This document shows, piece by piece, positions 6,288-31,754 of a stretch of DNA of 58,080 bases (position 1 is the stretch's first letter; the number at the start of each line of letters is the position of its first letter). The stretch is taken from assembly GCA_004376575.1 (NCBI GenBank), contig SOJN01000143.1:1-58080 (forward strand). The letters are read 5' to 3'. The translations under genes were made by a program, and so were the position numbers. The notes below the pieces were generated by a model. That model saw only the letters and a program-made list of their open reading frames with translations, did no database searches and was not told the DNA's origin. The DNA comes from a candidate division TA06 bacterium (GTDB taxonomy: Bacteria; Hydrothermota; DG-26; E44-bin18).

Positions 6288-6297
6288 TGACATCTCC

Positions 6298-6546: not shown

Positions 6547-6597
6547 GATCCGGCTGACGTACTTGGAAGGAAAATCATCGCAAATCTCTATCGTCGC

Positions 6598-7131: not shown

Positions 7132-7156
7132 CGGTCTTCCCTTAAGTACTCAGGAA

Positions 7157-7261: not shown

Positions 7262-7434
7262 CACACCCTCCGATGCAAGAGTGCCAATTTGTAAGGCATC
7301 CCTACCCTTCGTTTTCCAATCTTTGTTAAGGGCTCCAAGAACTCATCGTCTCCTTCAGATCTTCCTCCATATGCAACCCGATGCACAAAGGATTTCACGA
7401 CCAATGATGGGGCTTGACCGATCGTAACTGCAAG
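7261..7434 (-). CDS. Possible small protein following pseudopilin paralog 3 in frame
   Basis: Directly after the TAG of paralog 3 (7435-7437) the same frame stays open for 57 codons. It reads TIGQAPSLVVKSFVHRVAYG and on to LALLHRRV, ending in a TGA that overlaps the next ATG. It looks protein-like and faintly resembles the stretch after paralog 2 (SKYVSRIV). No convincing start codon or Shine-Dalgarno. It may be a decayed gene. Confidence 0.25.
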   Translation of the reverse strand, partial: LAVTIGQAPSLVVKSFVHRVAYGGRSEGDDEFLEPLTKIGKRRVGMPYKLALLHRRV

Positions 7435-14782: not shown

Positions 14783-16087
14783 TCAATGGATGAAGCTTTC
14801 TGCCGCCTTGATCCCATCCCTTATGGAGTCTTCCATTGAGAGATATGACCAGGCACCAAACCTCCCGGCAGTCCTTATTCCGTTAGCCTCCAGGTATTCG
14901 TTGATAGCCTCGAGGCTTTTCTCCCGATTAGAATCATATATCACATATGCATACTTTATGTCCATAATCTTAACAACCTCAACATCCGACTCTGATACGG
15001 CAAACCCCATCTTGTTCATCCCGGAGAGAACTAGAGAAACGAGAGTCTCTTCATTCCATCGGTGGCTCCCCCTATAAGAGATCTCGGCGTATGCCGATGT
15101 CTTTCCCTGCGGAACGAGCAACGGTGAAAAGTTGTGGGGAAATCCTATCCGGTAAAACGGAATCTCTGGTTCTGGAACGTACACCCAATGTTTGTCTGTC
15201 AAATCTGCAACACTGAAACCTATATTCACATCCAGTACGGACGTGTGAATAAGCCTGGCGCAAGATCCCTTCATAGAGCGCGGAGCTGCACTGAGGCAAG
15301 AAGTCAGTTCGGGAAGAGGTATGGTGCTGATCAAACCCTTGTATGAACACGAACTTCCATCCTCGAAATCGACATACTTTGTCTCTAGATCAATTTTCAC
15401 CACCTTCTTCTTACATGTCAGTCTGGTAAGCTTTGAGGCGATTGAGTTTACGACCACCTCAATTCCGCCCTTTTGCGGATAGAAGAACTGCACATTGTAT
15501 CCCACTTCCTCAGTGCTGGGAGAGAAGGCACCGCTTATGATATCCACTGGATTCGTGTCAGGCACAAACCTCCCCATCCAGTCGCAGGTGAGCCTATCAG
15601 GCTCTGTCACCCACATCTTCCTGTTGTAAGGGATCATGAAGTGCCTGGCAATCCCATCTCCGAATGTGGAGATAGCCCAGGATTGGAAATCCCCTTTATG
15701 TTCCTTCCCCCTGTCTATGTCTGCCTCTACATAAGCCAGGACGCACTCCTTGATGATGCTATCCGGAAGACCATGAAGATTTCGCTGAAAAGGATATCTG
15801 GTGTAGGCACCATTTGAGTAAACCCATGCCCTTCTGTTATGTGCCACCAGGACTTCTTCCACCACTTCCTTCACAAACTTCTCAGTTTCTGCGTTAAGAA
15901 AATGCAAGAGATGACCGGCATAATCAAACGTGAAACCATCCGCCTTCTCAGACCTGCACAAACCACCCACTCTTTCCTCTGATTCAAACAGACAATAGTC
16001 CACGCCTTCCTGTTCCAGCCTGTAAGCTGCCGAAAGTCCTGTCATGCCTCCGCCCAGGATTACAACTCCGAATTCTTCACCATTCAT
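14783..16087 (-). CDS. FAD-dependent oxidoreductase, UDP-galactopyranose-mutase/amine-oxidase-like
   Basis: The FAD-binding Rossmann motif VVILGGGMTGLSAAYRLE sits right at the N-terminus when translation starts at ATG 16087 (434 residues). It is followed by FESEERVGGLCRSEKADGFTFDYAGHLLHF in two parts. A longer open frame to 16246 would add 53 residues without family likeness that overlap the previous gene, so 16087 is preferred. Such proteins occur in glycan clusters as relatives of UDP-galactopyranose mutase and protoporphyrinogen oxidase. A mutase-type role on a nucleotide sugar is plausible but not shown. It sits 3 bp before the GT2 gene. Confidence 0.78.
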   Translation of the reverse strand: MNGEEFGVVILGGGMTGLSAAYRLEQEGVDYCLFESEERVGGLCRSEKADGFTFDYAGHLLHFLNAETEKFVKEVVEEVLVAHNRRAWVYSNGAYTRYPFQRNLHGLPDSIIKECVLAYVEADIDRGKEHKGDFQSWAISTFGDGIARHFMIPYNRKMWVTEPDRLTCDWMGRFVPDTNPVDIISGAFSPSTEEVGYNVQFFYPQKGGIEVVVNSIASKLTRLTCKKKVVKIDLETKYVDFEDGSSCSYKGLISTIPLPELTSCLSAAPRSMKGSCARLIHTSVLDVNIGFSVADLTDKHWVYVPEPEIPFYRIGFPHNFSPLLVPQGKTSAYAEISYRGSHRWNEETLVSLVLSGMNKMGFAVSESDVEVVKIMDIKYAYVIYDSNREKSLEAINEYLEANGIRTAGRFGAWSYLSMEDSIRDGIKAAESFIH

Positions 16088-16126
16088 AGTTCGACCTTGC
16101 TCACCACTTATGGTTCGACCTTGCTC
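16079..16126 (-). repeat. 24-bp tandem duplication spanning a stop and the next start
   Basis: Two adjacent 24-bp units (16126-16103 and 16102-16079) starting GAGCAAGGTCGAAC match at 21 of 24 positions. The first holds the TAA stop of the WecA-like gene; the second holds the ATG of the flavoprotein gene. Confidence 0.85.
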
Positions 16127-17115
16127 AAAAGCCTTCCAGTCATTACGAAGATGAAAGCAGTCACTATGTACGTGAAGATTGCTCCAAAAAGACTTACAGT
16201 CGTCGCAATGTATGAGGCCTCGCAAAGAACGAGTGAAATGAGGCACACAATCACAACCACATGCTGGTCTCTAAGACCAATGGCTTTGAGACGGAGCGCA
16301 AAATGGTCGCGCGAACCCCTGAACGGGCTTTTCCTTTTTGCCATTCTCAATATGGATACGTAGAAAGTGTCATATATGGGAATTGCCAGTATCAGAAGCG
16401 GACTGAGCAAAGCAATGTTGTTCGTGGCTGTGTAACTTGTCGATATTGAAACGCCGGCAAGCATAAAACCCAGGAAGAGTGAGCCTGCATCCCCCATAAA
16501 GATTGACGCTGGATGCCAGTTGTATCCCACAAATCCGATGCAGGCCCCTGCCAGGGCAGCAGAGACAACAGCGGTCAGGAGGTCGCCAGTGGGAACAGCT
16601 ATGAAGAAGAAGGTGGCAGAGGCAACGAAGGCAACACTGGCTGCCAGGCCATCCATTATGTCTATCAGGTTGAGTGCATTTGTTATTCCCACTATCCACA
16701 GGATGCTTAAGGCTACGTTCAAGGGAAACGAGAGGTAGACTATCTCTAGCCTCAGGCCCGATATGACCAGCACGACCGCTGCAACAAGCTGGCCAAACAG
16801 CTTCGTCCACACAGAAAGCCTCCTGTAATCATCGAGAACGCCCAGTCCACATACTATCGTGCCTCCCACAATCAATCCCAGGAGTTTGCTCTCTACCGAC
16901 CTTCGGATGACCATCACACAGACCAGGCCAAGCATAAACGCCAAATAGATTGCTACCCCTCCAAGGTAGGGAGTAGGTTTTTTGTGCCTTTTCAGCCCGT
17001 CAGGCACGTCCACCACTCCGCTCTTCCTCGCGAGAACCCGCATGATGGGAGTAAACATGAGTGCTAGACCTGCGGAGACGAGAAACGAGAGTAGGTGAAG
17101 CACCTGGGGTTTCAT
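16108..17115 (-). CDS. Undecaprenyl-phosphate sugar-1-phosphate transferase (WecA/MraY family)
   Basis: A 335-residue membrane protein with about ten helices. It has the family motifs: Asp95-Asp96 in LGVLDDYRRL, NALNLIDIMDGLA (146-158), and GDAGS (208-212). Near the C-terminus, RGSRDHFALRL stands where WecA-type enzymes carry their His motif. It would start a glycan by moving a HexNAc-1-phosphate from UDP-HexNAc to undecaprenyl phosphate. It abuts the GT2 gene at 17115. The absence of other peptidoglycan genes around it argues for WecA/TagO over MraY. Confidence 0.9.
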   Translation of the reverse strand: MKPQVLHLLSFLVSAGLALMFTPIMRVLARKSGVVDVPDGLKRHKKPTPYLGGVAIYLAFMLGLVCVMVIRRSVESKLLGLIVGGTIVCGLGVLDDYRRLSVWTKLFGQLVAAVVLVISGLRLEIVYLSFPLNVALSILWIVGITNALNLIDIMDGLAASVAFVASATFFFIAVPTGDLLTAVVSAALAGACIGFVGYNWHPASIFMGDAGSLFLGFMLAGVSISTSYTATNNIALLSPLLILAIPIYDTFYVSILRMAKRKSPFRGSRDHFALRLKAIGLRDQHVVVIVCLISLVLCEASYIATTVSLFGAIFTYIVTAFIFVMTGRLLSKVEP

Positions 17116-18104
17116 CAGATGATCCCCTTTCTAATCATGTCGTAGCCAACAGTTCTTTTGGATTGGACCAACCTCCTCTTGTGAAGCGAGGCAAAAATCT
17201 CCCTTGCCATCCCTGGAAGCCTCAACATGAGCATGGGAGAGCTGAGAGCAGTGTAACACCACAGCAGAGCTTCAAAGGGCATGATGAAGAGCATGTCTGC
17301 CAGAAGGCTCTCCGGCGAGTCATTCTTGATCATTGTCATGTATCTGTTCTTGATTATATGGTACCTGGTCGCGGTAGACCTTCTCGCGAACTGCTTTGCG
17401 CTAAGCACGGAGAAAACTCTCCTCCCCGCGGGAGCAGTCGCTCCCCTCTGGTGATAGGCAACGGCCCCAGGCTCATATATACAGCTCCAGCCCAGAAGCT
17501 GCGCACGCCACCCCAGATCCAGATCTTCGTAAAAGGCGAAATAGTCTTCATCGAAGTATTGCCCATCGAGTGCCACCTGGTCAAGCATCTTCCTTCTGTA
17601 GAAGGCTACTGCACCGCACACAGAAAAGACAAACTCCCTTGCATCGTACTGCCCCCTATCCCTTCCGCCATATCCCCTTTCTCTTGGCCTTCGGTCTCTT
17701 CCAATAAACTGGCCGGCCGAATCGAGTGTCTTCCCGTCAAACCGCAGAATCTTCCCTGACAGCATGCCGCCCCGCGGGAAGTCGCCCATTGTTGTTACTG
17801 CCTTTTCAACGTAGTCCGCTTCAAGCCTTATGTCTGTGTTGAGACACAGGACAAACTCGCATTCCAGAGCATCTATACCCTGGTTGAGCGCTCTGCAATA
17901 TCCGAGATTTCCATCATTCTCGATCAGGATGAGGTCTTTGTATCTTTCCTTGATCATCTGCACTGAACCATCTGTGGAGCCATTGTCAACTACCACCGTC
18001 CCTATATGATGATAGCTCTGCATCCTTATAGAGTCGAGGCAGGAACAGATGTCGTCAGCCCCATTCCAGTTCACCACAACTGCCGAAACGTCAGTGTCTC
18101 TCAA
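17115..18104 (-). CDS. GT2 glycosyltransferase (rhamnosyltransferase-like)
   Basis: A 329-residue GT-A enzyme starting VSAVVVNWNGADDICSCLDS, with donor-site VVVDNGSTDGSV (36-47), the DxD-type LCLNTDIRLE (about 86-95) and the catalytic-base region FAFYEDLDLGWRAQLLGW (191-208). This pattern is common in O-antigen rhamnosyl/glucosyl transferases. The last 60 residues are hydrophobic to amphipathic and may bind the membrane. The sugar cannot be assigned. Confidence 0.85.
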   Translation of the reverse strand: MRDTDVSAVVVNWNGADDICSCLDSIRMQSYHHIGTVVVDNGSTDGSVQMIKERYKDLILIENDGNLGYCRALNQGIDALECEFVLCLNTDIRLEADYVEKAVTTMGDFPRGGMLSGKILRFDGKTLDSAGQFIGRDRRPRERGYGGRDRGQYDAREFVFSVCGAVAFYRRKMLDQVALDGQYFDEDYFAFYEDLDLGWRAQLLGWSCIYEPGAVAYHQRGATAPAGRRVFSVLSAKQFARRSTATRYHIIKNRYMTMIKNDSPESLLADMLFIMPFEALLWCYTALSSPMLMLRLPGMAREIFASLHKRRLVQSKRTVGYDMIRKGII

Positions 18105-18174
18105 TGCCTGATGGCTCCTTCTCTTGTCCGGACTTCTCCCAGCGTTGTCGAGAACTTCAAAAGAGACAGAAAGC

Positions 18175-19290
18175 TCAGCCTTCCGCGACCTCCTTGTAGA
18201 CTTGCAACGTCTTTTCGGCCGTCTTTCTCCAGGAGAACTCCTTCACCTTTTCTAACCCCTTCGAAATGAGCTCGTCCCTCAATCCTGTGTCTTCAACCAG
18301 CAGACTCATAGCCTGGCCCATCTGTTCAACACTGTAAGGGTCTATCAGAAAAACAGCGTCTGCGAAGAGTTCTGATAGCGATGAGTTGTCTGAGGTTATC
18401 ACGGGAGTTCCGCAGGCCATTGCCTCAAGCACAGGAAGCCCGAAGCCCTCGTACAAAGAAGGGTAGACAAAACATTCTGCACTATTGTAGATTAGAGGAA
18501 GCATGCTGTCCTCGACATAGCCCAGATGGATGACGCGACCATCGAGGCCGAGCTCCTCTATTAGCTTCTTCACATCAAGGTATGGCCACTCCACTTTTCC
18601 GATAAGAACAAGCTGGTAGTCGGGACTTTTCGCCGAGAATAACTTGAAGGCCTTCAACAACCTCTCGACATTCCTCCTCAGATGTATCACCCCTACATAA
18701 AGGAAGAATCTATCTTTGATCCCACATTCGGACCTTGCCCGCTCCAGAGCATCTCTCTTCGACATCACCCTGAACATTGGATCGGCAGCTTCGTAGATCA
18801 CTTCGATTTTCTCCTCTGAGACCCTGTACATTCGCAGAATATCATTCTTCGTCGTCTTTGAACAGGCAATTATCCTGTCCGCGTGTCTGGCGGCAAATCT
18901 GCAAAATGGAATTTGCGCTATTTTCCCCTTGAGAGAAAACCATTCCGGATGAAGGCCAAACGTAATATCGTGTATAGTGACAACGGACCTGTGATTGACC
19001 ACCAGGGGCATCGTGTAGAATGGAAAGTGGAAGACATCAACCCTGTGGGTGAGCAATTCAGGGGGCAGTCTCAGATGGAGCCAGGTGAAGTAGTTCTCGA
19101 GGAACGGGAGGTTTATCTTCTTTTCGCTGAAATTGGGCCGGCCAGCAACCCAACCCGCCTCCTCATGAAGGTACAGGATGTATTGGTTCTCCTCGTCAAT
19201 TCCGGAGAGGTTCTCTAACAGGTTGTGCAGGTATCTGCCAACCCCCGCCCGCTTCCCAATCAGGGACCTTGCATCAATCCCAATTATCAT
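18175..19290 (-). CDS. GT4 glycosyltransferase (mannosyltransferase-like)
   Basis: A 371-residue GT-B enzyme. It starts MIIGIDARSLIGKRAGVGRY, typical of the WbpY/WbaZ-like mannosyltransferase branch. FLYVGVIHLRRNVERLLKAF marks the hinge. The EX7E motif is in PSLYEGFGLPVLEAMACGTPV. Spacing to the next gene downstream is 70 bp, the widest in the operon. It is similar in design to its upstream neighbour (19324-20466) and probably arose by duplication. Confidence 0.88.
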   Translation of the reverse strand: MIIGIDARSLIGKRAGVGRYLHNLLENLSGIDEENQYILYLHEEAGWVAGRPNFSEKKINLPFLENYFTWLHLRLPPELLTHRVDVFHFPFYTMPLVVNHRSVVTIHDITFGLHPEWFSLKGKIAQIPFCRFAARHADRIIACSKTTKNDILRMYRVSEEKIEVIYEAADPMFRVMSKRDALERARSECGIKDRFFLYVGVIHLRRNVERLLKAFKLFSAKSPDYQLVLIGKVEWPYLDVKKLIEELGLDGRVIHLGYVEDSMLPLIYNSAECFVYPSLYEGFGLPVLEAMACGTPVITSDNSSLSELFADAVFLIDPYSVEQMGQAMSLLVEDTGLRDELISKGLEKVKEFSWRKTAEKTLQVYKEVAEG

Positions 19291-19323
19291 ACATGCCTCA
19301 GATCTTCTTTGAAAAACCTATCC

Positions 19324-20466
19324 TCAGTTTCTGACAACTCTGTCATACACATCCAGGGTAGCCCTCGCAGCTTTCTCCCAGGTAAAGGTGGATGCTCTTT
19401 TCCGTCCGGCCAGTTTCAGTCTCTCTCTCAACTCGTCATCAGAAATTAGCCTGTACAATCCCTCTGCCATGTCGTTTACATCCTCTGGATTGACAAGAAG
19501 CGCACTGTCCCCCGCAACGTCCGCCATTGCGCCCCTGTTCGAGGTGAGAACAGGCTTCCCGCAGGCCATTGCTTCGACGACCGGAAGGCCAAAGCCTTCG
19601 TAAAGAGAAGGATAGGCAACAACGCTTGCCAGATTGTACAGGTATGGCATCTCCTCATCGGGAACGTATCCCGTGAACATGACTGTTTCTTTTGATCTAG
19701 AGGTCTCCGCCAGGGCGAAAATCTCATCGTACATCCAGCCTTTCTTTCCGCACACTACCAACCTGTATTTATCGGTATGCCTCTCACACATGAGTTGGAA
19801 TGCCTGGATCAATCTTACGTGGTTCTTTCTCGGCTCAAGAGTACCCACACATAGGACGAACTTCTCCGGTAACTTGTATCTCCGGCGCAGCGCTTCAAGA
19901 GACCCAGAATCGGTAATCGGTCTGAAGCTTTCCTCCACTCCATGCTCAATAATATGTATCCTCTCTTTGTCAAAACCATATACTTCAAGCAGATCACTGC
20001 GGGTAGTTCTTGAAACAGCTATTATGGAATCGACTTTCTCAACCACACATCTCATCTGTTTTTCCAAAAGCGCTCGCATCTCTTTGGTGAACATTTCAGG
20101 CCATAGCGCAAAACCAATGTCGTGTACGGTGACAATTGTTCTGGCGCTTTTCGATCTGAAAGGGTAAGGCTCTGGAAAATGGACCACGTCAAAGCTGCCA
20201 ATGAGCCACTCGATTGGAATATTGAGACGGTTTGCCCAGAACCTGGTGACCTTGACGGGTATCGGAGCACTCATCACCTTGAAATTGGATGCTGCGGGAA
20301 ATGATGCCATTGCAAGCTTCTTCGCATAATCTTTGAACAAGAAGCAGAAAAGGAGATACTTGTTCTCCCGGTCCAGTTCAGCAAGGCTTTTTACCAGATT
20401 GCGCGTGTACCGTCCTATGCCGACTCTTATCGGAAGTGCGGACTTATAGTCTATGCCTACTCGCAT
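19324..20466 (-). CDS. GT4 glycosyltransferase (mannosyltransferase-like, paralog)
   Basis: A 380-residue GT-B enzyme. MRVGIDYKSALPIRVGIGRY at the N-terminus and LCVGTLEPRKNHVRLIQAF in the C-domain match the WbpY/WbpZ-like group. EX7E is intact in YPSLYEGFGLPVVEAMACGKP. It overlaps the upstream gene by 10 bp. Close in layout to the following gene, suggesting two successive transfers of related sugars. Confidence 0.88.
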   Translation of the reverse strand: MRVGIDYKSALPIRVGIGRYTRNLVKSLAELDRENKYLLFCFLFKDYAKKLAMASFPAASNFKVMSAPIPVKVTRFWANRLNIPIEWLIGSFDVVHFPEPYPFRSKSARTIVTVHDIGFALWPEMFTKEMRALLEKQMRCVVEKVDSIIAVSRTTRSDLLEVYGFDKERIHIIEHGVEESFRPITDSGSLEALRRRYKLPEKFVLCVGTLEPRKNHVRLIQAFQLMCERHTDKYRLVVCGKKGWMYDEIFALAETSRSKETVMFTGYVPDEEMPYLYNLASVVAYPSLYEGFGLPVVEAMACGKPVLTSNRGAMADVAGDSALLVNPEDVNDMAEGLYRLISDDELRERLKLAGRKRASTFTWEKAARATLDVYDRVVRN

Positions 20467-21641
20467 GTCTTCTCGTAAAGCTTCAAGAGCTTCTCTACAT
20501 GGACTCCTCTGCCGAACCTTTCGGCGACTATAGATCTCCCTCTTTTGCCCATTGATTCCACCGTCTCCGGGGATTCCAGGAGTTGCTGTATGCGCGCGGC
20601 CAGAGCCTTCACATCTCCTCTGGGCACAAGGAAACCGACCTCACCGTCAACCAGCCAGTCACTTATTCCTCCAGAGTCGAATGCAACTACCGGGCGACCA
20701 TGAGAAAGCGCCTCTATGCCTACAATGCCAAAAGGCTCGGGCCAGAGGGACGGGACGGCGACCAACCTGCAAGCCTCATAGAACGTCTTCAGTTCCCCGT
20801 GTCTCACCTGACCTGCAAAATGGACCCTGGAGGCCAACCCAAGCCTGGACACCCGCCGATCAAGTAGGCTCTCATATTGCTGCGACCCATTCCCTACGAC
20901 AACCAGTTTCACATGGCCCGGCAGCAGGGAAAGCGAATCCAGCAGGATGTGCAAACCTTTTTCAGGGAGCAGCCTCCCCACATAAAGGATACTGTCACCG
21001 ACCGATCCTGTCTCCACTGGCGGGTCTGTGAAGTATGGAAGGACATCCACCATCTTCTCGTTGAATCCGTTCTGCACGAGACACTCCTTCATGTACCTGC
21101 TGGCAACCATCAGTTTATCCAGCCTAATGTTGGCCCTTAGAGTTCGATGAAACGAGCGGTAGTCCCGCCACACACGCCACGGCTTCCTGGTGAAATACCC
21201 GTAACACATAAGTGGCACATAACTGTTGAGAAGGCATCTTATTCCAAAAGGACGTCCGCAGATTGAACCACTGAGGTAGTACTTGCCCCTGGGGCAGAAG
21301 AGCCTGTGGTCATGGAGATACCTGACCGTCGGGCGCATCCTCAGAAGCTGTTCTGTCACCCAACTATTATGGAGGTTGTGTATGTTTATCAGATCCGGAT
21401 TTTCGCCCTCCACAACTCTTGCCACCTCAGCAATAACTTCGTCTTTTCTCTGAAATGACCACAGCGAAATACCAGGAATTCGATGAACGGCGTATTGCCG
21501 GTTCTCCCCGGAATTCCCGGACTCCTCGCAGAGGAGCGCAACATGGTGCCCTCTTTCGATCAGTTCATTCGATATTGAGCGGACATAGACTTCAGTCCCT
21601 CCCAGGTGGCCACAGAACTGGTTAACCTGAAGGATCCTCAT
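20457..21641 (-). CDS. GT4 glycosyltransferase with Cys-rich N-domain insert
   Basis: A 394-residue GT-B enzyme starting MRILQVNQFCGHLGGTEVYV. The C-domain has SILYVGRLLPEKGLHILLDS and an intact EX7E in SLWPEPFGIVGIEALSHGRPV. The N-domain holds HDHRLFCPRGKYYLSGSICG followed by RCL, a Cys-bearing insert that I recall from a GT4 subgroup of uncultured bacteria; whether it binds a metal is unknown. Confidence 0.86.
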   Translation of the reverse strand: MRILQVNQFCGHLGGTEVYVRSISNELIERGHHVALLCEESGNSGENRQYAVHRIPGISLWSFQRKDEVIAEVARVVEGENPDLINIHNLHNSWVTEQLLRMRPTVRYLHDHRLFCPRGKYYLSGSICGRPFGIRCLLNSYVPLMCYGYFTRKPWRVWRDYRSFHRTLRANIRLDKLMVASRYMKECLVQNGFNEKMVDVLPYFTDPPVETGSVGDSILYVGRLLPEKGLHILLDSLSLLPGHVKLVVVGNGSQQYESLLDRRVSRLGLASRVHFAGQVRHGELKTFYEACRLVAVPSLWPEPFGIVGIEALSHGRPVVAFDSGGISDWLVDGEVGFLVPRGDVKALAARIQQLLESPETVESMGKRGRSIVAERFGRGVHVEKLLKLYEKTCE

Positions 21642-21651
21642 CCCTTTCTTC

Positions 21652-23121
21652 CTAAGGGTCTACCCCTTTGGTAAAACTTACCCTCAAATAGTCGAGCGCA
21701 GTTAACCTGAACTGTCTGTCAAAGATAGCCATTAGCAGGTAGTAACAGAGAAACAGGGCTACTGCGCTGGCCAAAAATGTGCGAATGTTACTGACGAAAC
21801 GACAGACCCCCGATGTCGCTGAGAGCACAATCGCAAAAACCACCAGGGGTTTCCATAACAGTTTTGTGAAACTCACCTCGACAAGCACCCTTTTGGTCAA
21901 ATATATGACGAGTGGCTGCATCGCCAGAATGATTCCCATGATGAGCAGTGACATACCGAGTATGCCGAACTTCAGCGTCACATAGGGCCCGAGAAGCAAA
22001 AGAAGGACCGGGCTGGGAATGTATGCCCAGAGAAGGGCTCTTGTCTTTCCCAGGCTCTTATACACCTCTCCCCAGTTTGCAAAGATGGCTCTCACCATAG
22101 CCGCAATCATGAAAATCCTGAATGCGTTCACCGATGGTAACCATTTCTCTCCCAGAAGATAGAGGATGGTCGGCCTCGCAAGCGGTATCAGGACAGCACC
22201 GAATGAAAGCATAAAGATTGCAGAGTTTCTGGTGATCGTGCTGTAGGCTGAGTTCACCCTCCTTATGTCGTTCCTTATTGCGGAAAACGCAGGGAATGAT
22301 ACACCTGCCATTTCTGACCTGATCCTCATCAACTGGTGCGGAAAATAAAATGCCAGGCTGTAGAATCCAAGGGCAGCGTTACCTGCCAGAAATAGAGTCC
22401 GGTCACCAACCAATCCAACTATGAAGTCGTCTCCCTGCCAGAATATCCAAATCAGCAGCGTGAGGAAGTACAGCGGTAGGCTGAAGCGGAGAATCTCTTT
22501 GAAGATCTTTCTGTCAAACTCCAGTCTGGGCTTATGCGGTGAATAGCTCCAGATGATGATCACATTTATCACAGAGTCGAGAACATAACCTGTGATGAGG
22601 CTCCATACCCCAAATCCTCTTACTGCCATCACTATGCATATCACGGTGTTGCCTGCCAATCCGAGGGCTATCGGCAACTTCACCTTGAAGATGTCAATGG
22701 TCTTCAGAAACAAGGCCCTTGGAAGCGCGAAGGGTACGGTCAGAACGAACAGGCTCGCTACTCTCAAGTAGGTCGCCATCTCTGGTTTGTGCAGACCGCG
22801 TGAAATGAAACCCGCAAAGGCGAGGACTATGATGAACATTGGTATGGAGACAGCAAGCTGACAACTGAACGCTGTATTGAGCATTCTTTTGGGATCTGTT
22901 CTTGTCTGGACTATCACATCCTGCATCCGCAGGCTTGCAAGGTTGTTGACAAAAACGACAACCAATATGGTGAATGCAAAAAGCCCGAAGTCCGAAGGCA
23001 ACAGGAGTCTTGCCAGAACCACCTTTCTGAGGAGAATGATGAGCGAAGTGAGCCCCATGAAAATGAAGGAGACGTTTAAGCCCCTTATCGATTTCGTCCT
23101 TATGTCTGTCTCTGCAATCAT
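21652..23121 (-). CDS. Oligosaccharide flippase (MOP family, WzxC-like)
   Basis: 489 residues from ATG 23121, which lies 4 bp after the preceding stop; a longer frame to 23178 would overlap that gene without family support. About 12-14 membrane helices. The N-terminus KSIRGLNVSFIFMGLTSLII is typical of the WzxC/RfbX branch, with MQDVIVQTR near residue 70. It would flip the lipid-linked repeat unit built by the operon. A second flippase lies at 3168-4484, so two glycans may be exported from this locus. Confidence 0.86.
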   Translation of the reverse strand: MIAETDIRTKSIRGLNVSFIFMGLTSLIILLRKVVLARLLLPSDFGLFAFTILVVVFVNNLASLRMQDVIVQTRTDPKRMLNTAFSCQLAVSIPMFIIVLAFAGFISRGLHKPEMATYLRVASLFVLTVPFALPRALFLKTIDIFKVKLPIALGLAGNTVICIVMAVRGFGVWSLITGYVLDSVINVIIIWSYSPHKPRLEFDRKIFKEILRFSLPLYFLTLLIWIFWQGDDFIVGLVGDRTLFLAGNAALGFYSLAFYFPHQLMRIRSEMAGVSFPAFSAIRNDIRRVNSAYSTITRNSAIFMLSFGAVLIPLARPTILYLLGEKWLPSVNAFRIFMIAAMVRAIFANWGEVYKSLGKTRALLWAYIPSPVLLLLLGPYVTLKFGILGMSLLIMGIILAMQPLVIYLTKRVLVEVSFTKLLWKPLVVFAIVLSATSGVCRFVSNIRTFLASAVALFLCYYLLMAIFDRQFRLTALDYLRVSFTKGVDP

Positions 23122-23125
23122 AACC

Positions 23126-24361
23126 CTAGAATTTATCTGCCAGGAGGTTCTTGCCGTGCGCCATCTCATCAACCTCATACCCGAGAAAACTTACAGTTGT
23201 AGCATAGATGTCAACTAGGTCCACGACTTCCGGAGTCCTTATCCTTTTGGATGCATCCGGGGCAAGGATGAAAATACCCTGATTCTCAGTGCAGTCAGGA
23301 TCGTATCCGTGCATCCCCCTTGGCGCGTCACTACCAACACCAAAGAAGCACGGATGAATCAGATTACCAGAGTGAGCAAGAAAAATGAGATCGCCATATT
23401 CTCTGTTGTTGAATCTTATGTGGTGGGTCTTTCTGTCCGCATCATCAAGCAGCTTGCCGCCGCCAACTTCCTTCAGCAGACCTTCTATCGGTTCCTTCGA
23501 ATTCTCGTCAAAGAACCAGAACCTTGCAGTTGTAGAGTCAAGAAAAACGAGATAATCTCTTCCCAGTTTACACGGAAGCATTCGCAACCTGCTCCATATA
23601 GGGAGGTGCTCTTTCACCTTCACCATTCCATGGTCACCGAATATGAATAGAACGAAAGACCCAGAAATCTTTTCAAAAGTTGAGTATAGCTCTCTCACTC
23701 GAGAATCCGTTTCTTTCAGAGCCTTCTTGATCTCTACCGAATCCGGCCCGTGCGTATGGCCCACACCGTCCAACAGTCCGAGTTGGACAAACGCGAACCT
23801 GTGCTTCACACTCAAAGACTCACAAAGGCGAGAGACAACCGTTTCGTCGGTGTACTGGGAAGAGTACTCCGGCCAGCCCACATAAATAGATTCCCCACCT
23901 GTCTTCTTTATCAGGTCAAAAATGGTGGGCGTTACCAGACTCATCTCCCAGGGAAGTTCCTTCTCCGAGTAGTCAAAAAAAGGAAGAAGCGTCAAGGGAA
24001 CCTGAGCTGTCGTATGCAAGTACCTGTATATTGGCCCGGCAAGCCTCGAGGTCTTCAACTCTACCCTCTTTCTGATCCACAGCCTAAGCCTGGGCAGTCC
24101 CTCCAGGCGTGACAATGGACCCGTCCCCTTGAACGGGCTCGTCTCTGGCGAGTATTTGAAAAGAGTACAGACACCACTCTCTTCGGGATAGAGTCCAGCC
24201 AGATATGCAGGTCTGGACTGGAAACCGAAAGGCTCACGCGTCTTTGAGACGATCGCACTGCCCTTTTTGGAAAGCTCCCATAGAAATGGAGTGTCTTTTT
24301 CAGACAGGTAGTCGTGCCTGAAGCCATCAAGAAGAATAAAGACTGCGGTTCCCAAATCCAA
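23126..24361 (-). CDS. Type I phosphodiesterase / nucleotide pyrophosphatase-like (alkaline phosphatase fold)
   Basis: 411 residues from a TTG start that overlaps the radical SAM gene by 35 bp. Metal-site landmarks are FILLDGFRHDY (Asp12), a candidate nucleophile Ser49 in FQSRPAYLAGLYP, LGLLDGVGHTHG, FGDHGMVKV and MHGYDP. The Ser takes the place of the usual Thr nucleophile. There is no signal peptide, so it would act in the cytoplasm on a phosphodiester or phosphonate-like substrate. Its place beside radical SAM and nucleotidyltransferase-like genes hints at a modification pathway. Confidence 0.75.
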   Translation of the reverse strand: MDLGTAVFILLDGFRHDYLSEKDTPFLWELSKKGSAIVSKTREPFGFQSRPAYLAGLYPEESGVCTLFKYSPETSPFKGTGPLSRLEGLPRLRLWIRKRVELKTSRLAGPIYRYLHTTAQVPLTLLPFFDYSEKELPWEMSLVTPTIFDLIKKTGGESIYVGWPEYSSQYTDETVVSRLCESLSVKHRFAFVQLGLLDGVGHTHGPDSVEIKKALKETDSRVRELYSTFEKISGSFVLFIFGDHGMVKVKEHLPIWSRLRMLPCKLGRDYLVFLDSTTARFWFFDENSKEPIEGLLKEVGGGKLLDDADRKTHHIRFNNREYGDLIFLAHSGNLIHPCFFGVGSDAPRGMHGYDPDCTENQGIFILAPDASKRIRTPEVVDLVDIYATTVSFLGYEVDEMAHGKNLLADKF

Positions 24362-25430
24362 CCTTCTTTCCGAGCCTTTTTACGATCGACTCCGGCCATA
24401 CAGGAAGTGAGTTCTCCACGTAGGTGCTTATCCAACATCCTGGACAGTGTCCCTTTCTTATTTGCCTCCGTTTCTCTCTGAATTCTGGACTCAGCCATAT
24501 TTGAGAGATCGGCCTGGCCCGAATGTTTCCCACTACTCCCCCCTCGCTCCAGGTGCAGCAAGGTAGAACATCTCCCATCTCTGAGATGACGATGTTGAAA
24601 AGCCCTGCGAGACAAGGATGAAAAAGTGACGGGTAACTTGACTCTCCTGCATTGTACTTCCTCATCATCCGGTACGCAAATCTGTCTTTCTCTTCTGGCA
24701 GATGCGCCATCAGCCAATCCATTTGAGCATCGTCCACCTCAAGACCGTGGATCCTGCCGCCTTCTCTCGTCACACCGAATTGCTCGGCAAAGCTAATAAG
24801 ACTCCCGAAGGAATGGTTTATTCCCAGACTTTCTTGAGTAATAGTCTTGTTCAGTTCGATAATAGATTCGACATTCTCTCCTGTGACTACTGAGGCCACG
24901 TTCAAGCAAGGCTTTCCGTCACCAATCGCTTTACTGAGTGAGGCCAACTCCTTCAGGTCAGAGTAAGTTTTCTGGAAGGACAACCCCTTTCTGAGTCTTG
25001 AGTGAACCTCTTCTGTCCCATCAATTGAAACAGTTAGGCTGTCCAGATGGGTCTCAATGACTGCTTTTCTATTCACCTCATTGAGCATGGAGCCGTTGGT
25101 CGTAACATTCACCCATATCTTTTTCTCTTTGAGGGCGCGCACAAATCGAAACAAGTCTTTTCTCATGAAGGGCTCGCCGCCTGATATAGAAACAGTCTTG
25201 ACACACAGATCTTCAAGCTGATCTGCCAGCTCGAGCAATTCTTCGGTGGAAAGCTCATCGTCAGCAAGCTCAGGGTTTTCTTGATATCTTGACCAGATAT
25301 TGCACTGAACACACCTCGCATTGCACTTTCCAGTTATCAAGACCTGAGCGTGGACAGGAGAACGACGAGGTTTGGAGGTGAGCCACCTGTACCACCAGTC
25401 TACAGTCTCTTTTGCGCTAGTAAGCACCAC
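24327..25430 (-). CDS. Radical SAM protein with SPASM-like C-terminal cysteines
   Basis: A 367-residue protein. The radical SAM cluster motif is CNARCVQCN (Cys36, Cys40, Cys43). It is followed by SISGGEPFMRKDLFRF and NVTTNGSMLNE, the SAM-binding strands. The C-terminus has CLAGLFNIVI, LPCCTW and GHCPGCW, suggesting one or more extra FeS clusters as in SPASM/twitch enzymes. Such enzymes modify peptides or carbohydrates; the target here is unknown. It overlaps both neighbours (14 bp and 35 bp). Confidence 0.85.
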   Translation of the reverse strand: MVLTSAKETVDWWYRWLTSKPRRSPVHAQVLITGKCNARCVQCNIWSRYQENPELADDELSTEELLELADQLEDLCVKTVSISGGEPFMRKDLFRFVRALKEKKIWVNVTTNGSMLNEVNRKAVIETHLDSLTVSIDGTEEVHSRLRKGLSFQKTYSDLKELASLSKAIGDGKPCLNVASVVTGENVESIIELNKTITQESLGINHSFGSLISFAEQFGVTREGGRIHGLEVDDAQMDWLMAHLPEEKDRFAYRMMRKYNAGESSYPSLFHPCLAGLFNIVISEMGDVLPCCTWSEGGVVGNIRARPISQIWLSPEFREKRRQIRKGHCPGCWISTYVENSLPVWPESIVKRLGKKVGFGNRSLYSS

Positions 25431-26688
25431 CCTTTACTATGACCCTCCACAATTCTGTAGTTGCCTCTCTCAGCTCCTCCCACCAGTCTTCTGCTTTGCC
25501 ACTGAAAGGAACCACAACTGGAAGAAACAGGGCTGCCTGTCCAGTACGCTGCCCGTTTCTCAACACAACCGAGTCCCTGCCTAGCCTATCAACCGAGAAG
25601 AAGAGCATCGTCGCGGCAGCATACGTCATGTCAAGAGGCGTTCCCCTCATGAAGAATGGGAGTGGGCGAATTCTGCCCTTCTTTATGGCCGGGGCAGCAC
25701 GATGAAGAAAGGTCCTGTACTCTCTCAGCCTCCGCAACACATTCTTCCTGCGCAGGAAGGTGATCAAGGCAGAATCGAGAGGGTAATCCTTCACTCCAAA
25801 TGCTTCTTCCAAGCACAGACCAAGGGTCTGTTCCATTTTCGGGACGAGCAGGTTCCAGACCTTCACGGCAACGACTGAACTGCCAGCTGCCACATTCCCA
25901 GGAGAGTACTTCTCGCGGACTCTGTTTTTGTTCGGGTCGAGTTTGTAGTGAGTCCAGAAGCGGGCCTCCTCCAGCAAGCCTTGAAGGCGCGAAGCCACCC
26001 CATCCGAAGACTGCAAGAGCGCACTTAACCTCTCAGCGTATGTGGGCCTGTAATTGTGTTCCAGAACGAGAATACAGGATACTATGTCCAGAAATATTTT
26101 CCCGTTGTGATAGAATGCAAACTCAAACTCAGCGCCTTCAGATTCCCTCAGTGGGTCGATCATCACAAGCTGTGCAGCTATTCTGTTGAACAGGAGAGTG
26201 AGAGCATCATCAAGGGGTATCTCACTTGCCTCAGGTTTCTCTATCTGCGAAAGCGTCTCATCGTCGCCCCACACAACCTTTCCGTGTTCTGCCAGTTCCA
26301 CGTTGAACATGGAAGGGCTCATGTTCTTTAAGTAATCTGTGGTGATGGGTGCGAAGTCGACGTGCGAACAGAACTCCTCTCCCCTGAGTGAATCGGTCAC
26401 GCTGCGAGACATAACAGGAAAGAGGGACCTCGCCTCTGCCACATCTTTCCTATCCTTCGGAACCACAAGGAGGTCATAGTCACTGTAGATTAGCGCCCCT
26501 CCGGAAGATAACTCGCACGAACCCTCCCCTCTGCTCATTCCGCCGGTCAGAATCAAAGAGCGGACTTTTCGCTCCGGGTATGTGTCAAAGAAACCCTCGA
26601 CGGTCTTGACCAGATACTCCTTCATCCTGGTGTCCGCCTCTTCTCGCTGAGCAAGCTTGAAGTCAAGACGGAGATTCAAACCCATCAT
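25417..26688 (-). CDS. Nucleotidyltransferase-fold protein, unknown substrate
   Basis: A 423-residue protein. Near the N-terminus LILTGGMSRGEGSC (46-58) and IYSDYDLLVVP (67-77) form the GG/S plus DxD pattern (Asp70, Asp72) of pol-beta-type nucleotidyltransferases. The remaining about 300 residues are helical and unrecognised. It overlaps the genes on both sides. A role in activating or tagging a sugar is possible but unproven. Confidence 0.6.
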   Translation of the reverse strand: MMGLNLRLDFKLAQREEADTRMKEYLVKTVEGFFDTYPERKVRSLILTGGMSRGEGSCELSSGGALIYSDYDLLVVPKDRKDVAEARSLFPVMSRSVTDSLRGEEFCSHVDFAPITTDYLKNMSPSMFNVELAEHGKVVWGDDETLSQIEKPEASEIPLDDALTLLFNRIAAQLVMIDPLRESEGAEFEFAFYHNGKIFLDIVSCILVLEHNYRPTYAERLSALLQSSDGVASRLQGLLEEARFWTHYKLDPNKNRVREKYSPGNVAAGSSVVAVKVWNLLVPKMEQTLGLCLEEAFGVKDYPLDSALITFLRRKNVLRRLREYRTFLHRAAPAIKKGRIRPLPFFMRGTPLDMTYAAATMLFFSVDRLGRDSVVLRNGQRTGQAALFLPVVVPFSGKAEDWWEELREATTELWRVIVKGGAY

Positions 26689-28619
26689 CTGATCACCCTT
26701 CTAATTTTTGCCAACCCTCTCCCGATTCTGCTTCTCTTCATCTGTTTTCTAAAGAGTCTATACAATCTTTCGCTCTCAACATTAATACTAACCTCGTCCT
26801 TCTCCATTCTGTGCAGCACATACCTCAAGACGGCAGAAGCCGAGTAGACGGCATCGAACATGAGCGGATGGAGCCTCAACTCCTCATCGTAATAGAAACC
26901 TTCTCCGTATCCTCCATACGCATCTTCGGCCTTGAGGGCACCGAAGGCTATCTCAGATTGCCGAAGCCAGAATTCATCCTCTGTATGTCTGTACATCTCG
27001 TAATAGGTTTCAGCAAGCCACACAGTCTCACAGGTCGCAATCCTTGGAGAAAAAGAGAAGATGAGTGTATCGAATGCAGGTACGTCCCACCACCTCTGCC
27101 AGGTAAGGAGATAGGTCGCGAACTCTCGGGCTATTCGCTTGTAGAGCTCTTCCCCGGTGATCTCATAGGCCAGAAGGTTGGCTTGAGCTGCAAATATCGC
27201 TGAAACACCATCCACCTCATCTTGCTTGTTGTCTCTGAGATAACCCGCGGTGAGCACACCACCCTCTGCAAATCGATTCGTCCATTCCAGCGCCTTTCTC
27301 GCACTGACCAAATAGGAGTTGTCTTTGAAGAGACGGTAGGCAAGTAATAGAGCAGTAACACCCTCGCCGTTTCCTCCCACTGAATAGCTCTGCTCACCTG
27401 TCTCCAGTTTGAATTTGGAAATCTCTTCAAAAACCGGATAGGTGCGCGCCCAGTGGCCATCCTCAAACATCGAAGACTTAAGCCAGGAAAGACCTTCCTT
27501 GATTGCTCTTATGAGATTTGAATCGTCATCCCCCAAACATGCTCTCTCCAGAAGAGCTCTCAGAGCGGTCGCCTGCCCCCCGGGGTATCCGGCAATGCCA
27601 GTTCCCAGGTGGCTGTAGAAAATGAGCCTTCGGGATCCGGGATCAAGCCTTGCGGTGTTATGCCAGACCCTGCCGTCCTCCAGGAGGATACTCGCATTTT
27701 CATCCAGCATCAGTTCTTTGGCTCCCCTGGACATTTCCAGAACTGATTCGTCTTTCACCCTCGTAGATAAAGAATAGAGGTCTGACGCAAGCGTGTTGTA
27801 GGTGGGCAAACACCAGTAGCCTCCCAGTGGTGCTCTTCTATCTCTTCTTGTCCCCAACAGAAACAGATTGCATTCCGGGTCAAATACGCTATTAAGCCAG
27901 TTAACTGACTTGTTGAGATGTACATTAAAGTCAGTTTCTCCAACCACAGCGGCATGCCTTCCTTTGAGGAACTCCCTCACAATATCTTTCCAGTCCCCGC
28001 CCTGGTAAAGATGAAAAGAAAGAGATACTCTTTTGCCGTGCAGGTCACGCTTTATCTCCTTCTCTTCAAGCTCAACATGTGGGGATAGCCAGTCATCGTA
28101 GTCGTTTTTCTTTCTTTCGAAGACCTGTTCTTTTGCGACTATACCCAGTTCGAAGACGGTCTCACGCCCTGTAGAGAAAAGGGAGAAGGACAGCGGGATC
28201 TTCGTTCCCTCAATAGTGACATGAATCGGAAAGGCGACGCCAGATGCACCTCTCAGTGAGGAGATGAGAAAAAGGGGCATCTTAACATACATGCACGAGT
28301 GTATCCACCTGCCCTCGAGTTCCTTTGGATATATTCTGGTGCGGCAAAACGCGGGCATCAGAGAAATATCCCTTATGGCCTGAAGGCTGATCTGCTCCCG
28401 CTTGAAATATGCTGCCCCCCCGACAAAAGCATAGCCTGGTTTCTCAAAGAAGCTGAACCTGGCAAGAGACTGCCATGTCTCACCGGTAAGGGGTATGTCT
28501 ATGTTGAGTGAGTTTCCTTCTCTTCGGAAGGTTCCATCAGTCTGTATGTGAGGCTCTTTTCCCGTAGTGGACTCCTCGGTATCTACCCATGGACCTGGCC
28601 AGTCTATAAAACGGTGAAT
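26685..28619 (-). CDS. Alpha/alpha-toroid protein (C5-epimerase/glycosidase-like), ATT start proposed
   Basis: The C-terminal half has repeated helix pairs with aromatic and Gly-rich turns (YSVGGNGEGVTALLLAYRLF, DGVSAIFAAQANLLAYEITG, CETVWLAETYYEMYRH) that fit an (alpha/alpha)6 toroid as in glucuronyl C5-epimerases and six-hairpin glycosidases. The N-terminal half looks like a beta domain. The first ATG is at 28358, but the frame stays protein-like for 87 codons further upstream. The only well-placed start there is ATT at 28619-28617, 8 nt after a perfect AAGGAG. With it the product is 644 residues and overlaps the GT2 gene by 83 bp. No signal peptide is obvious. Confidence 0.6.
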   Translation of the reverse strand: MHRFIDWPGPWVDTEESTTGKEPHIQTDGTFRREGNSLNIDIPLTGETWQSLARFSFFEKPGYAFVGGAAYFKREQISLQAIRDISLMPAFCRTRIYPKELEGRWIHSCMYVKMPLFLISSLRGASGVAFPIHVTIEGTKIPLSFSLFSTGRETVFELGIVAKEQVFERKKNDYDDWLSPHVELEEKEIKRDLHGKRVSLSFHLYQGGDWKDIVREFLKGRHAAVVGETDFNVHLNKSVNWLNSVFDPECNLFLLGTRRDRRAPLGGYWCLPTYNTLASDLYSLSTRVKDESVLEMSRGAKELMLDENASILLEDGRVWHNTARLDPGSRRLIFYSHLGTGIAGYPGGQATALRALLERACLGDDDSNLIRAIKEGLSWLKSSMFEDGHWARTYPVFEEISKFKLETGEQSYSVGGNGEGVTALLLAYRLFKDNSYLVSARKALEWTNRFAEGGVLTAGYLRDNKQDEVDGVSAIFAAQANLLAYEITGEELYKRIAREFATYLLTWQRWWDVPAFDTLIFSFSPRIATCETVWLAETYYEMYRHTEDEFWLRQSEIAFGALKAEDAYGGYGEGFYYDEELRLHPLMFDAVYSASAVLRYVLHRMEKDEVSINVESERLYRLFRKQMKRSRIGRGLAKIRRVIR

Positions 28620-29394
28620 AGAACATGCTCCTTAAGTTCATTCCACTCCGTGCGATGAATCTCATGTCCAGAACTGTCTGTATTGCAGTCTCGACAAGCA
28701 CCTGCTCAAGACTCACCCTCAAAGATGGGTCCAAGCTTGCTACTCCGCAGGTGACTCGCTTCATTCGTCTGTATGCCGCCATAAATGCGTCGTCATCAGA
28801 GTGAAAAACGGCAGCGTCGGGCTCGTACACAACCACATGCCCCTCTTCCTGGACCCTGCGCGCCCAATCCCAGTCCTCGGCCCCGGCTATTGATTCGCTA
28901 AACCTTATTCTGTTCCAGACTTCCTTTTTGATCGCTGAGTTGACATTCGAAAAAAAGTAATCCTCTGACTGCACCTTCCTCTCTGTACCGTAGCGAATCT
29001 GCAAATCCCTTTTTTCCGAGAGATTTGTTCTGGGGCCTGCAATCTGCCTTCCATAAACCCCTGCAGTCCTTGCGTCTTTAAGTGCACCAGTCAGTTTTGC
29101 CAGCCAATTCTCATCCGCTGGCTGTGCGTCCGCGCTCAAGGAGACGAGCAAATCTGAGCTGGCCCGTTCAAAACCTATGTTGAGCGCCCGGCCATAAGTG
29201 AACTCTTCTGGTTCTATCTGAACAACTATCGTTTCGAAGTGGGATGCAATTTGAAGAGTATTATCGCAGGATCCGGAATCTACTACTATGATCTCATCCG
29301 GCTTCTTGGTCTGTGCGCAGACAACCTCAAGGGTCTCTCTGATGAACTCCTCCTCATTCTTGGTCCTTATGATTACCGCGACGGATGGAGCCAT
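28537..29394 (-). CDS. GT2 glycosyltransferase, first gene of the glycan operon
   Basis: A 285-residue GT-A enzyme starting VAVIIRTKNEEEFIRETLEV, with donor-site VVDSGSCDNTL (38-48) and the DxD-like LSADAQPADENWLAKL. GAEDWDWARRVQEEGH is the acceptor/base region. It is the first gene after the promoter at 29453-29481, and its 3' end overlaps the proposed start of the toroid gene. Confidence 0.86.
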   Translation of the reverse strand: MAPSVAVIIRTKNEEEFIRETLEVVCAQTKKPDEIIVVDSGSCDNTLQIASHFETIVVQIEPEEFTYGRALNIGFERASSDLLVSLSADAQPADENWLAKLTGALKDARTAGVYGRQIAGPRTNLSEKRDLQIRYGTERKVQSEDYFFSNVNSAIKKEVWNRIRFSESIAGAEDWDWARRVQEEGHVVVYEPDAAVFHSDDDAFMAAYRRMKRVTCGVASLDPSLRVSLEQVLVETAIQTVLDMRFIARSGMNLRSMFYSPFYRLARSMGRYRGVHYGKRASHTD

Positions 29395-29639: not shown

Positions 29640-29866
29640 GCGCAGCTGTTTTCAGGAGATCCTTCGAGTATCGCTCCCTTCGGCGCTGCCTCAGGACTAA
29701 TTTCCCTAGACTTCGCCCCTCGATAGACTCCCTCCGACTTCGCGAAGGACACGCGGGGCTACGCTCGGGATCGAGACTCTCTAAGCTTCGACTCCGTCTC
29801 AGCAAGAGAGACTAAGCACGACGAAATATGTCTCGCGCCTTCTTGCGAAGGCTCGGCCCTATTTCG
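29640..29866 (-). repeat. Composite palindromic element A+C, copy 2
   Basis: Read on the minus strand, module A spans 29866-29822: CGAAATA and TATTTCG arms enclose a GCCTTC-GCAA-GAAGGC hairpin. Module C follows at about 29700-29640, from TCCTGAGG to TCGAAGGATC. The 5' arm supplies the last codons (PKTK) and TAG stop of the O-antigen ligase gene. Confidence 0.8.
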
Positions 29867-31754
29867 TTTTCGGGCTTATATAGCTTTGCGCGGGGAGAAG
29901 GGACCAGTCAAACTCCAGAAGCGTCTTCTCGTAATCATTCTGAATCCTCAGCTCCAAATGTTGCAGTCTCTTTTCTCGAAGAACCTGATACTGTTCCTCT
30001 TTCTTGTCTGTCATTCCAAGAGTTCCATAAACCTGGGCAAGCATGAATCGGGCAACAAGATAATTTGGCTCCACACTGACCAACATCTTCAACTCGCTGG
30101 CAGCCTTGTCGTAGGACCCCCCTTCTATGTAGACTGCTGCCAGCTTCTTTCTGAGGAATGGATTGTAGGGATCCACATTGACAGCCCCTCTTAGAAGCGT
30201 TGCCACGCCAGAATAGGCTTCCCTTTGACCGATATTCTGTTTCTGGTCATATATGAAATCCGCAAAATCCTCCCAGAAGATCCTGTCGACTGGGTTGGAT
30301 TTGATCGCAGATTCAAACCTCGTCTGTGTAAGATACAGATCTCCTGCACTCTTCGTCTCGTCATACCTCTTTGCATACAGCTTGCCCAGGGCATTGTGAT
30401 AGATAGCTTCGTTCGGAGAAAGCGCAAGGGCCACTCTGCAAGATCCTATTGCCCTGTCTACGTCATTCCTCTTCACCTTTTTCGCCATACTATTGTAAAA
30501 AGATATGGAAACTGCCGGGCGGAGCACAATAACGGCATAAATAATCGCGAGCGCAAAAAGATATATCTTGGCCCTTTTTGGCGGTCTGAAGCTCCTCATG
30601 CTGACAGACGCAGAACACAGAATGCCTGCCAGGGCGAAGAATGCATACCCATTAATTGGAAGGTATAGCGCATTATCCACCAGAGAATGTGCCAGAAGCG
30701 CAATGACAGCAGCCAGCGATCCAGCAATGAGAGGGTCTTTCGTTTTTGCAAACCTGACTCCGCTGACCAGAACAGAAGAGAAGAACACCAGAAACGCGGC
30801 AAGACCAGCGATGCCAGTGGTGGCCAGATACTGAAGGTATTGATTGTGTGCTATCTTCGCCACCTTTGCGTACCTGCCAACTGCATGCTGAACAGGAAAG
30901 TTTGTCATTCTCGAATAGTATACATAGTTCCGGAATCCTACACCCGCAGATGGCCTCATTTTGGCAATCTCCAGAGACTGCTTCCAGATATTCGGCCTCT
31001 CCATCGCGTAGATATCTTGTTTACCCGCTGTCAGTATCCTATCCCGTATCGGGTTTGGAACAACCGCGGCTACGATTACCACACCAACAAGTATGGCCAG
31101 CCACCTCTTGCTTTTTAATATACCCAGAACGATCAGAGATGCTGCAAGGGCAATGAGTCCTGCCCTTGCTCGCGTCAGAAATAGGGCGACGAACAACAAC
31201 AGAGAAATAGGCACATAGACCGCCAGCCGTTTCAGTCCGGAGCTCCTGGAAAACAGAACGAATCCAGCAGCAAGAGAAAGCCCGATTATGAGTGTATCAA
31301 CAAGATAGGTCGGATAGACAAGTGTCCCCGAGACTCTACTCGTGCCAGAGGCCGCCTGAACGATTGCATGGACAGACTGGACGACGCCAACCCCAATCAG
31401 TATATATGCAACCTTTCTCTTCAGAGTCTCTTTGGGGAGATTCATGCAAATCAAAAAGAGCAAGAGATATGAGAAGACCTCATGCAGACCCTTGAAGCTG
31501 GGATAAGGATTCCTGGAAAAAATCGTAGAAATGAACAAAACGCCTGCAAGAAGTATGGCAGGAAGGTTCGCGACGGAAGACCTGAACGTGAACCCACCCT
31601 TTGCCACCATCGAGTAAAGCCATACTACAACACCAACGATCACAATAAACTCGCTCAACGCGAGGATGTATTGCGGCTCTCCCCCTTTTACCAGGTTGAG
31701 AGCGAAAAGTAGAGCAATTGTCGTTAAGAGAAATGTGCTAATTCTTTGACTCAT
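29859..31754 (-). CDS. O-antigen ligase/polymerase (Wzy_C) with C-terminal TPRs
   Basis: A 631-residue protein with about 11-12 membrane helices in the first 420 residues. The Wzy_C/WaaL domain has the TRARAG motif at 194-199, RPNIWKQSLEI and the periplasmic loop GVGFRNY (271-277) through HNQYLQYLATTG (303-314). Residues about 430-620 are TPR-like helices, e.g. YHNALGKLYAKRY and YLVARFMLAQVYGTLG. It would polymerise glycan or ligate it to lipid A or protein. A pilin O-oligosaccharyltransferase is also possible given its place after pilR. It lies 73 bp after pilR. Its last codons come from a repeat element. Confidence 0.85.
   Translation of the reverse strand: MSQRISTFLLTTIALLFALNLVKGGEPQYILALSEFIVIVGVVVWLYSMVAKGGFTFRSSVANLPAILLAGVLFISTIFSRNPYPSFKGLHEVFSYLLLFLICMNLPKETLKRKVAYILIGVGVVQSVHAIVQAASGTSRVSGTLVYPTYLVDTLIIGLSLAAGFVLFSRSSGLKRLAVYVPISLLLFVALFLTRARAGLIALAASLIVLGILKSKRWLAILVGVVIVAAVVPNPIRDRILTAGKQDIYAMERPNIWKQSLEIAKMRPSAGVGFRNYVYYSRMTNFPVQHAVGRYAKVAKIAHNQYLQYLATTGIAGLAAFLVFFSSVLVSGVRFAKTKDPLIAGSLAAVIALLAHSLVDNALYLPINGYAFFALAGILCSASVSMRSFRPPKRAKIYLFALAIIYAVIVLRPAVSISFYNSMAKKVKRNDVDRAIGSCRVALALSPNEAIYHNALGKLYAKRYDETKSAGDLYLTQTRFESAIKSNPVDRIFWEDFADFIYDQKQNIGQREAYSGVATLLRGAVNVDPYNPFLRKKLAAVYIEGGSYDKAASELKMLVSVEPNYLVARFMLAQVYGTLGMTDKKEEQYQVLREKRLQHLELRIQNDYEKTLLEFDWSLLPAQSYISPKTK

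Follow-up and report, generated by a model that had tools for sequence, protein, structure and literature searches.

The window analyzed here, a stretch of 58,080 nucleotides from a candidate division TA06 bacterium (assembly GCA_004376575.1, contig SOJN01000143.1), carries a glycan operon in which a first-pass annotation had singled out an unusual tailoring subcluster of five genes, encoding a GT2 glycosyltransferase, an alpha/alpha-toroid protein, a nucleotidyltransferase-like protein (NT), a radical SAM protein (rSAM) and a type I phosphodiesterase (PDE). The five open reading frames (ORFs) were confirmed as a co-directional run on the minus strand between an O-antigen-ligase-like gene and a Wzx gene (Table 1), and the comparisons reported below narrowed the conserved part of this run to NT and PDE, a pair that recurs in glycan loci of about a dozen phyla. 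The family assignments were upheld, by Pfam matches for GT2, PDE, toroid and rSAM with its SPASM domain and by motifs and fold search for NT. The genes had been described as overlapping end to end, which applies to toroid/NT (4 bp), NT/rSAM (14 bp) and rSAM/PDE (35 bp, the PDE start being TTG) and not to GT2/toroid, with the listed toroid ATG at 28358 and the GT2 stop at 28537. None of the five products has an apparent signal peptide on inspection by eye, in line with the earlier description.

Table 1. Features of the glycan operon in the window, in transcription order.
Feature	Coordinates	Strand	Evidence	Remarks
O-antigen-ligase-like membrane protein with TPR	29859..31754	-	weak NCBIfam matches PEP_O_lig_1/2A73	glycan operon start
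GT2 glycosyltransferase	28537..29394	-	PF00535, E 3e-25	frequent third partner of NT-PDE pair
Alpha/alpha-toroid protein	26685..28358	-	PF06662 (C5-epim_C), E 4e-6, residues 330-369	accessory
NT, KNTase/ANT-like nucleotidyltransferase	25417..26688	-	motifs and fold search	core component
rSAM, radical SAM with twitch/SPASM-type domain	24327..25430	-	PF04055, E 2e-20; PF13186, E 5e-10	accessory
PDE, NPP-fold phosphodiesterase	23126..24361	-	PF01663, E 2.6e-18	core component
Wzx-type flippase	21652..23178	-	PF13440, E 6e-54	directly downstream of PDE
Three GT4, a GT2, WecA-like initiating transferase, FAD/UGM-like oxidoreductase	14783..21641	-	Pfam/NCBIfam	remaining glycan operon

A scan of 84,980 genomes for PDE, with phage PDEs included in the query, gave 80 loci, of which 18 held a member of the window PDE subfamily and 62 a generic NPP-like protein. 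Helper alignments containing altered copies of the window PDE were used for searching only, and all conclusions are drawn from natural sequences (alignment A4 onward). An NT gene was present near PDE in all 18 subfamily loci, part of which come from related metagenome-assembled genomes (MAGs), and in none of the 62 generic loci (Fisher p 3e-18); the two genes mostly overlapped or were adjacent, with a maximum spacing of ~2.5 kb. The hosts of the 18 loci belong to Opitutia, Eisenbacteria, Fermentibacteria, Nitrospirae, Deltaproteobacteria, Acidobacteria, Bacteroidales, Chloroflexi, GN15, Latescibacteria, Kiritimatiellae and Krumholzibacteria. In the reverse direction, an NT profile (A6) matched in 75 of 289 Verrucomicrobiota genomes; PDE lay within 1.5 kb in 17 of the 29 newly fetched loci and at ~4-7 kb in three more, and was present at all four NT loci retrieved from other groups. 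The PDE and NT distance matrices were correlated across 39 loci (r = 0.89), a value reached in none of 2000 permutations.

The surroundings of the pair were those of glycan assembly, with glycosyltransferase or flippase genes at 30 of 34 module loci as against 3 of 62 generic NPP loci. Relatives of the window GT2 were found in NT loci L020, L026, L141-L143, L145 and L148-L152, and the order NT-PDE-flippase recurred in L023, L024, L028 and L149, the last of which, GT2-NT-PDE-Wzx, reproduces the window order minus toroid and rSAM. A gene of the PRK/uridine-kinase family (PF00485) accompanied 9 of 33 NT loci as compared with 1 of 63. In L138-L144 from Verrucomicrobiota, NT stood without an adjoining PDE in a block with uridine-kinase-like, GlmU-like NTP_transferase (hexapeptide repeats), chain-length and sugar-phosphate-transferase-like genes.

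The physical linkage of the two genes extended to fusion, PDE and NT forming one continuous ORF in an Opitutia and an Acidobacterium (loci L012, ORF 1027-3396 of 790 aa, and L017, 760 aa), while in a Chloroflexi MAG PDE was joined to a GT2 in a single ORF (L019:9971-12445). A search of viral contigs (IMG/VR) with PDE returned two related phage contigs, L010 and L011. On one of them PDE is complete and a homologue of the window NT comes after it (BLASTP E 9e-6 over 210 aa); in L010:4865-9802 (IMGVR_UViG_3300033150_002046) the genes form a GT4-PDE-NT-GT4-GT2 cassette adjoining the gene for a phage major head protein. On L010 and L011 the cassette interrupts a block of structural genes, among them those for the head-tail adaptor and the major head protein. 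The phage PDE and NT had no PHROG family, and no relative of either was found among GenBank phages. A tblastn search of plasmids retrieved only generic Pseudoalteromonas NPPs for PDE and no match for NT. Among 147 genomes of the bacterium's own phylum, relatives of NT, PDE or toroid were found in none besides that of the window, apart from one weak partial match to the NT profile with no adjoining PDE; the cassette is therefore a singleton in its phylum, which suggests that it reached this lineage by horizontal gain. A single-sequence NT scan of the genome contigs gave no match, a result that reflects the choice of pattern rather than absence.

The window NT itself showed no Pfam or NCBIfam match, and a weak match to PF18765 was obtained for 6 of its 19 relatives (best E 0.007). 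Its assignment as a nucleotidyltransferase follows from the motifs G49...E55...D70-x-D72...D111 together with the fold search. G49, D70, D72 and the additional conserved residue R169 are invariant in the 19 relatives and E55 almost so, and D111, the third carboxylate, is replaced in a few. The AlphaFold2 (AF2) model (pLDDT 79, pTM 0.81) found its best PDB folds in ANT(4')/kanamycin nucleotidyltransferase (KNTase) and HalB (Foldseek prob 1.0, E ~1e-3; 6un8/1kan/6p06), and the NT profile also gave weak matches to 4ebj and 6sxj. NT shares with the ANT(4')/KNTase enzymes of the pol-beta superfamily the G-x(n)-SDYD motif and the third Asp, but it is only 11-12% identical to them over the fold alignment, has an extra C-terminal helical region and the conserved E55 and R169, and is encoded beside PDE in glycan operons.

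PDE scored 67.2 bits against PF01663 (curated cut-off 23), and all 20 subfamily members also matched. Its metal ligands D12, D198, H202, D243 and H244 are invariant in the 20 members and H351 is present in every complete one, the six occurring in the same order as in NPPs. The AF2 model (pLDDT 90) was closest to XaNPP, ENPP5 and ENPP6 (TM ~0.7), and several of the nearest solved NPP structures have AMP or UDP-GlcNAc bound. PDE differs from these enzymes in that it appears to be cytoplasmic, is paired with NT and carries a subfamily-specific DSTxxRFW motif, with an invariant S276, that may serve catalysis or binding in another way. The nucleophile site differs as well. One sister clade has Ser at the NPP nucleophile position (GFSQ/GYSS), whereas clade A, which includes the window PDE, the phage PDE and the two PDE-NT fusions, lacks a conserved Ser or Thr there. 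In the alignment with XaNPP the nucleophile falls at G46/F47 of the window PDE, and the neighboring Q48 and S49 are not conserved within the clade. A Ser had been put forward as candidate nucleophile; S49, which directly precedes a predicted helix (H50-55) in the AF2 model, was rejected as a conserved feature on the grounds that clade relatives carry E, P, L, T or Q in its place. A shifted loop could still bring another residue to the site.

These comparisons indicate that NT and PDE very probably act jointly on a cytoplasmic glycan precursor. A shared cytoplasmic precursor had already been proposed, and it fits the PDE-NT fusions because NT should need nucleoside triphosphates (NTPs), as well as the co-occurrence of the pair, often with GT2, in glycan loci. 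The earlier suggestion of a phosphodiester-related outcome likewise agrees with both folds. Enzymes of the ANT type attach a nucleoside monophosphate (NMP) to a hydroxyl group of a sugar, those of the NPP fold cleave nucleotide diesters, and given these known activities the simplest joint function would be that NT nucleotidylates a sugar and PDE processes the resulting diester. NT would thus transfer an NMP from an NTP onto a sugar hydroxyl of a lipid-linked (or nucleotide-linked) precursor in the cytoplasm, and PDE would then act on this substrate by cutting its sugar-phosphate-nucleoside diester, most likely in such a way that the nucleoside is freed and the sugar retains the phosphate. The freed nucleoside would be recycled by the recurrent uridine-kinase-like gene product, and the modified precursor would pass to Wzx for export; such trimming to a phospho-sugar would account for the uridine-kinase neighbors. 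In the window, rSAM (with a BtrN-like twitch domain, possibly in sugar oxidation or epimerization) and the C5-epimerase/lyase-like toroid may edit the same glycan. Judged from sequences and models, this particular order of nucleotidylation followed by trimming is possible but doubtful.

The overall account that explains the data best, and to which we give about equal belief and doubt, is that NT and PDE form a mobile, conserved glycan-modification core, often with GT2 and beside Wzx, to which toroid and rSAM are lineage-specific additions. Several observations weigh against it. NPPs normally release NMP, which favors removal of a nucleotide over trimming; given the nucleophile site of clade A, the catalytic mechanism of the window PDE, or its being active at all, is uncertain. 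NT resembles the ANT fold only modestly (TM 0.40-0.42, normalized to the target), several Verrucomicrobial NT loci had no PDE in the stretch examined, and shared species history accounts partly for the correlation between the PDE and NT distances. Most loci, and the window as well, lack the uridine-kinase gene, and neither rSAM nor toroid has comparative support as a module member.

The same genes can be read in other ways, of which the closest to the proposed trimming is that NT caps the precursor with a nucleotide and PDE takes the NMP off again, giving a reversible gate on polymerization, chain length or Wzx export rather than a final substituent. Removal is the usual direction of NPPs, the nearest structures of this fold bind AMP, opposing activities would be fused on one chain, and the pair lies beside Wzx and, in L023, L024, L028 and L057, beside chain-length/tyrosine-kinase-like genes. 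A gate of this kind would have no need of a uridine kinase, however, the NPP nucleophile is lost in clade A, and we know of no precedent for nucleotide capping of glycans, so that we regard it as rather improbable. It is also improbable, if not negligibly so, that NT transfers a phospho-substituent in the manner of LicD/FKRP, from a CDP- or UDP-activated alcohol, with PDE editing or recycling the diester and the PRK kinase and NTP_transferase/LbH neighbor making the donor. LicD-type proteins share the superfamily fold, and genes for a kinase of the PRK family and for a GlmU-like NTP_transferase stand beside NT in Verrucomicrobial loci L138, L140-L142 and L144, but no LicD Pfam match was obtained for any of the 19 NT family members (alignment A6), whose nearest folds are ANT/KNTase and HalB, and donor-synthesis genes were not seen in the window or most loci.

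The rank of HalB, from the Hailong antiphage system, among the best NT folds and the presence of the pair on a phage could also point to a nucleotide-signaling or defense module (CBASS/Hailong-like), in which NT would synthesize a signal and PDE degrade it and which would have come by chance into glycan islands, defense genes and glycan loci both being found in variable islands. This was rejected as very improbable on the basis of the PADLOC result, with no match for NT or PDE, and of the glycan context, including the prevalence of glycosyltransferase and flippase genes and the glycosyltransferases that flank the phage pair; no effector gene, HalA-like or other, was seen in the neighborhoods. 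A reading of the five genes as nothing but variable glycan-operon content, without joint function and with neighbors hitchhiking, holds for toroid and rSAM as far as the comparison reaches; for NT and PDE the fusions and the contrast between subfamily and generic loci exclude it in practice, and as an explanation of the whole it is highly improbable.

Each of the folds is already known. What appears to be new is an NT-PDE unit that is conserved among glycan loci and in some cases fused, together with an NPP-fold clade that lacks the usual nucleophile; a literature search of incomplete coverage found no account of the pair, of the gene set or of such a clade. The occurrence of the pair in a dozen phyla, its two mutual fusions, the further fusion to a glycosyltransferase and its carriage by phage argue strongly, on genetic grounds, for a single enzymatic unit of undescribed function. 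More tentatively, it may represent a widespread new glycan chemistry, in which a KNTase-like NT would nucleotidylate precursor sugars and a dedicated, nucleophile-less NPP-fold enzyme would process the diester, the NT-PDE(-GT2) cassette being swapped between phyla, used also by a phage and elaborated here by rSAM and toroid. Were it to nucleotidylate or phosphorylate glycan precursors, the pair would account for unassigned phosphate or nucleotide in the surface polysaccharides of bacteria. NT-PDE would then provide a recognizable marker for the annotation of exopolysaccharide and O-glycan loci, and the fused 790-aa protein a direct test system.

The tight gene arrangement had also been taken to imply a fixed five-gene pathway, which did not withstand the comparison. 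Co-occurrence outside the window, on which the first-pass annotation had made its reading depend, was found for NT, PDE and often GT2, and the neighborhood search it had recommended placed PDE beside NT at all loci with a close PDE relative; neither toroid nor rSAM gained such support. The structure prediction and fold search proposed alongside it led to ANT(4')/KNTase and HalB for NT and to NPPs for PDE. Toroid scored above the Pfam cut-off for the C-terminal domain of D-glucuronyl C5-epimerase (PF06662, 26.8 bits, cut-off 23.3), but only 40 of 188 model positions were matched and no solved relative was found by sequence. No homologue adjoined any of the other PDE-NT pairs, and none was detected in 146 phylum relatives or in another 297 genomes, from the L016 phylum (~440 genomes in all); the last of these searches had no positive control and is hence weak. 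Upstream of 28358 the toroid frame is open for ~85 codons (28358-28620 region), with no ATG, GTG or TTG, and the ATG that overlaps the GT2 stop is in a different frame and stops after 12 codons. The coding frame of toroid is likely to continue upstream as far as about 28500, and its start is uncertain, with a frameshift, an assembly error or a non-canonical start as possible causes.

Relatives of rSAM occurred near the pair in 2 of 34 loci (L013/L014), with generic similarity. The window protein has a radical SAM cluster motif CxxxCxxC (C36/C40/C43) and auxiliary Cys residues C273, C291/C292, C329 and C332, and gave a weak phmmer match in PDB to the auxiliary-cluster region of BtrN. The latter, a twitch-type radical SAM dehydrogenase in butirosin biosynthesis, oxidizes a cyclitol hydroxyl and holds its auxiliary cluster by four Cys (PMC9012708). 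By analogy with BtrN, given the similar auxiliary Cys set and the cyclitol oxidation, sugar oxidation by rSAM is possible; the two proteins share CxxxCxxC and four auxiliary Cys but differ in the extra Cys C292, the match being confined to 56 residues and the whole-length similarity generic. On this comparative sequence evidence, toroid and rSAM are best described as local extras rather than conserved parts of the module.

Outside the glycan operon, three tandem paralogues of 170-177 aa (window 5766-7947) combine a membrane segment at the N-terminus with a stretch, 'NMYxLQxxxEdF...YPA', that is pseudopilin-like. A 1864-aa protein encoded at 42214-47808 resembles, by eye, SprA-type gliding/type IX secretion proteins, and PilB/PilT/PilC and PilS/PilR-like genes are present in the same window.

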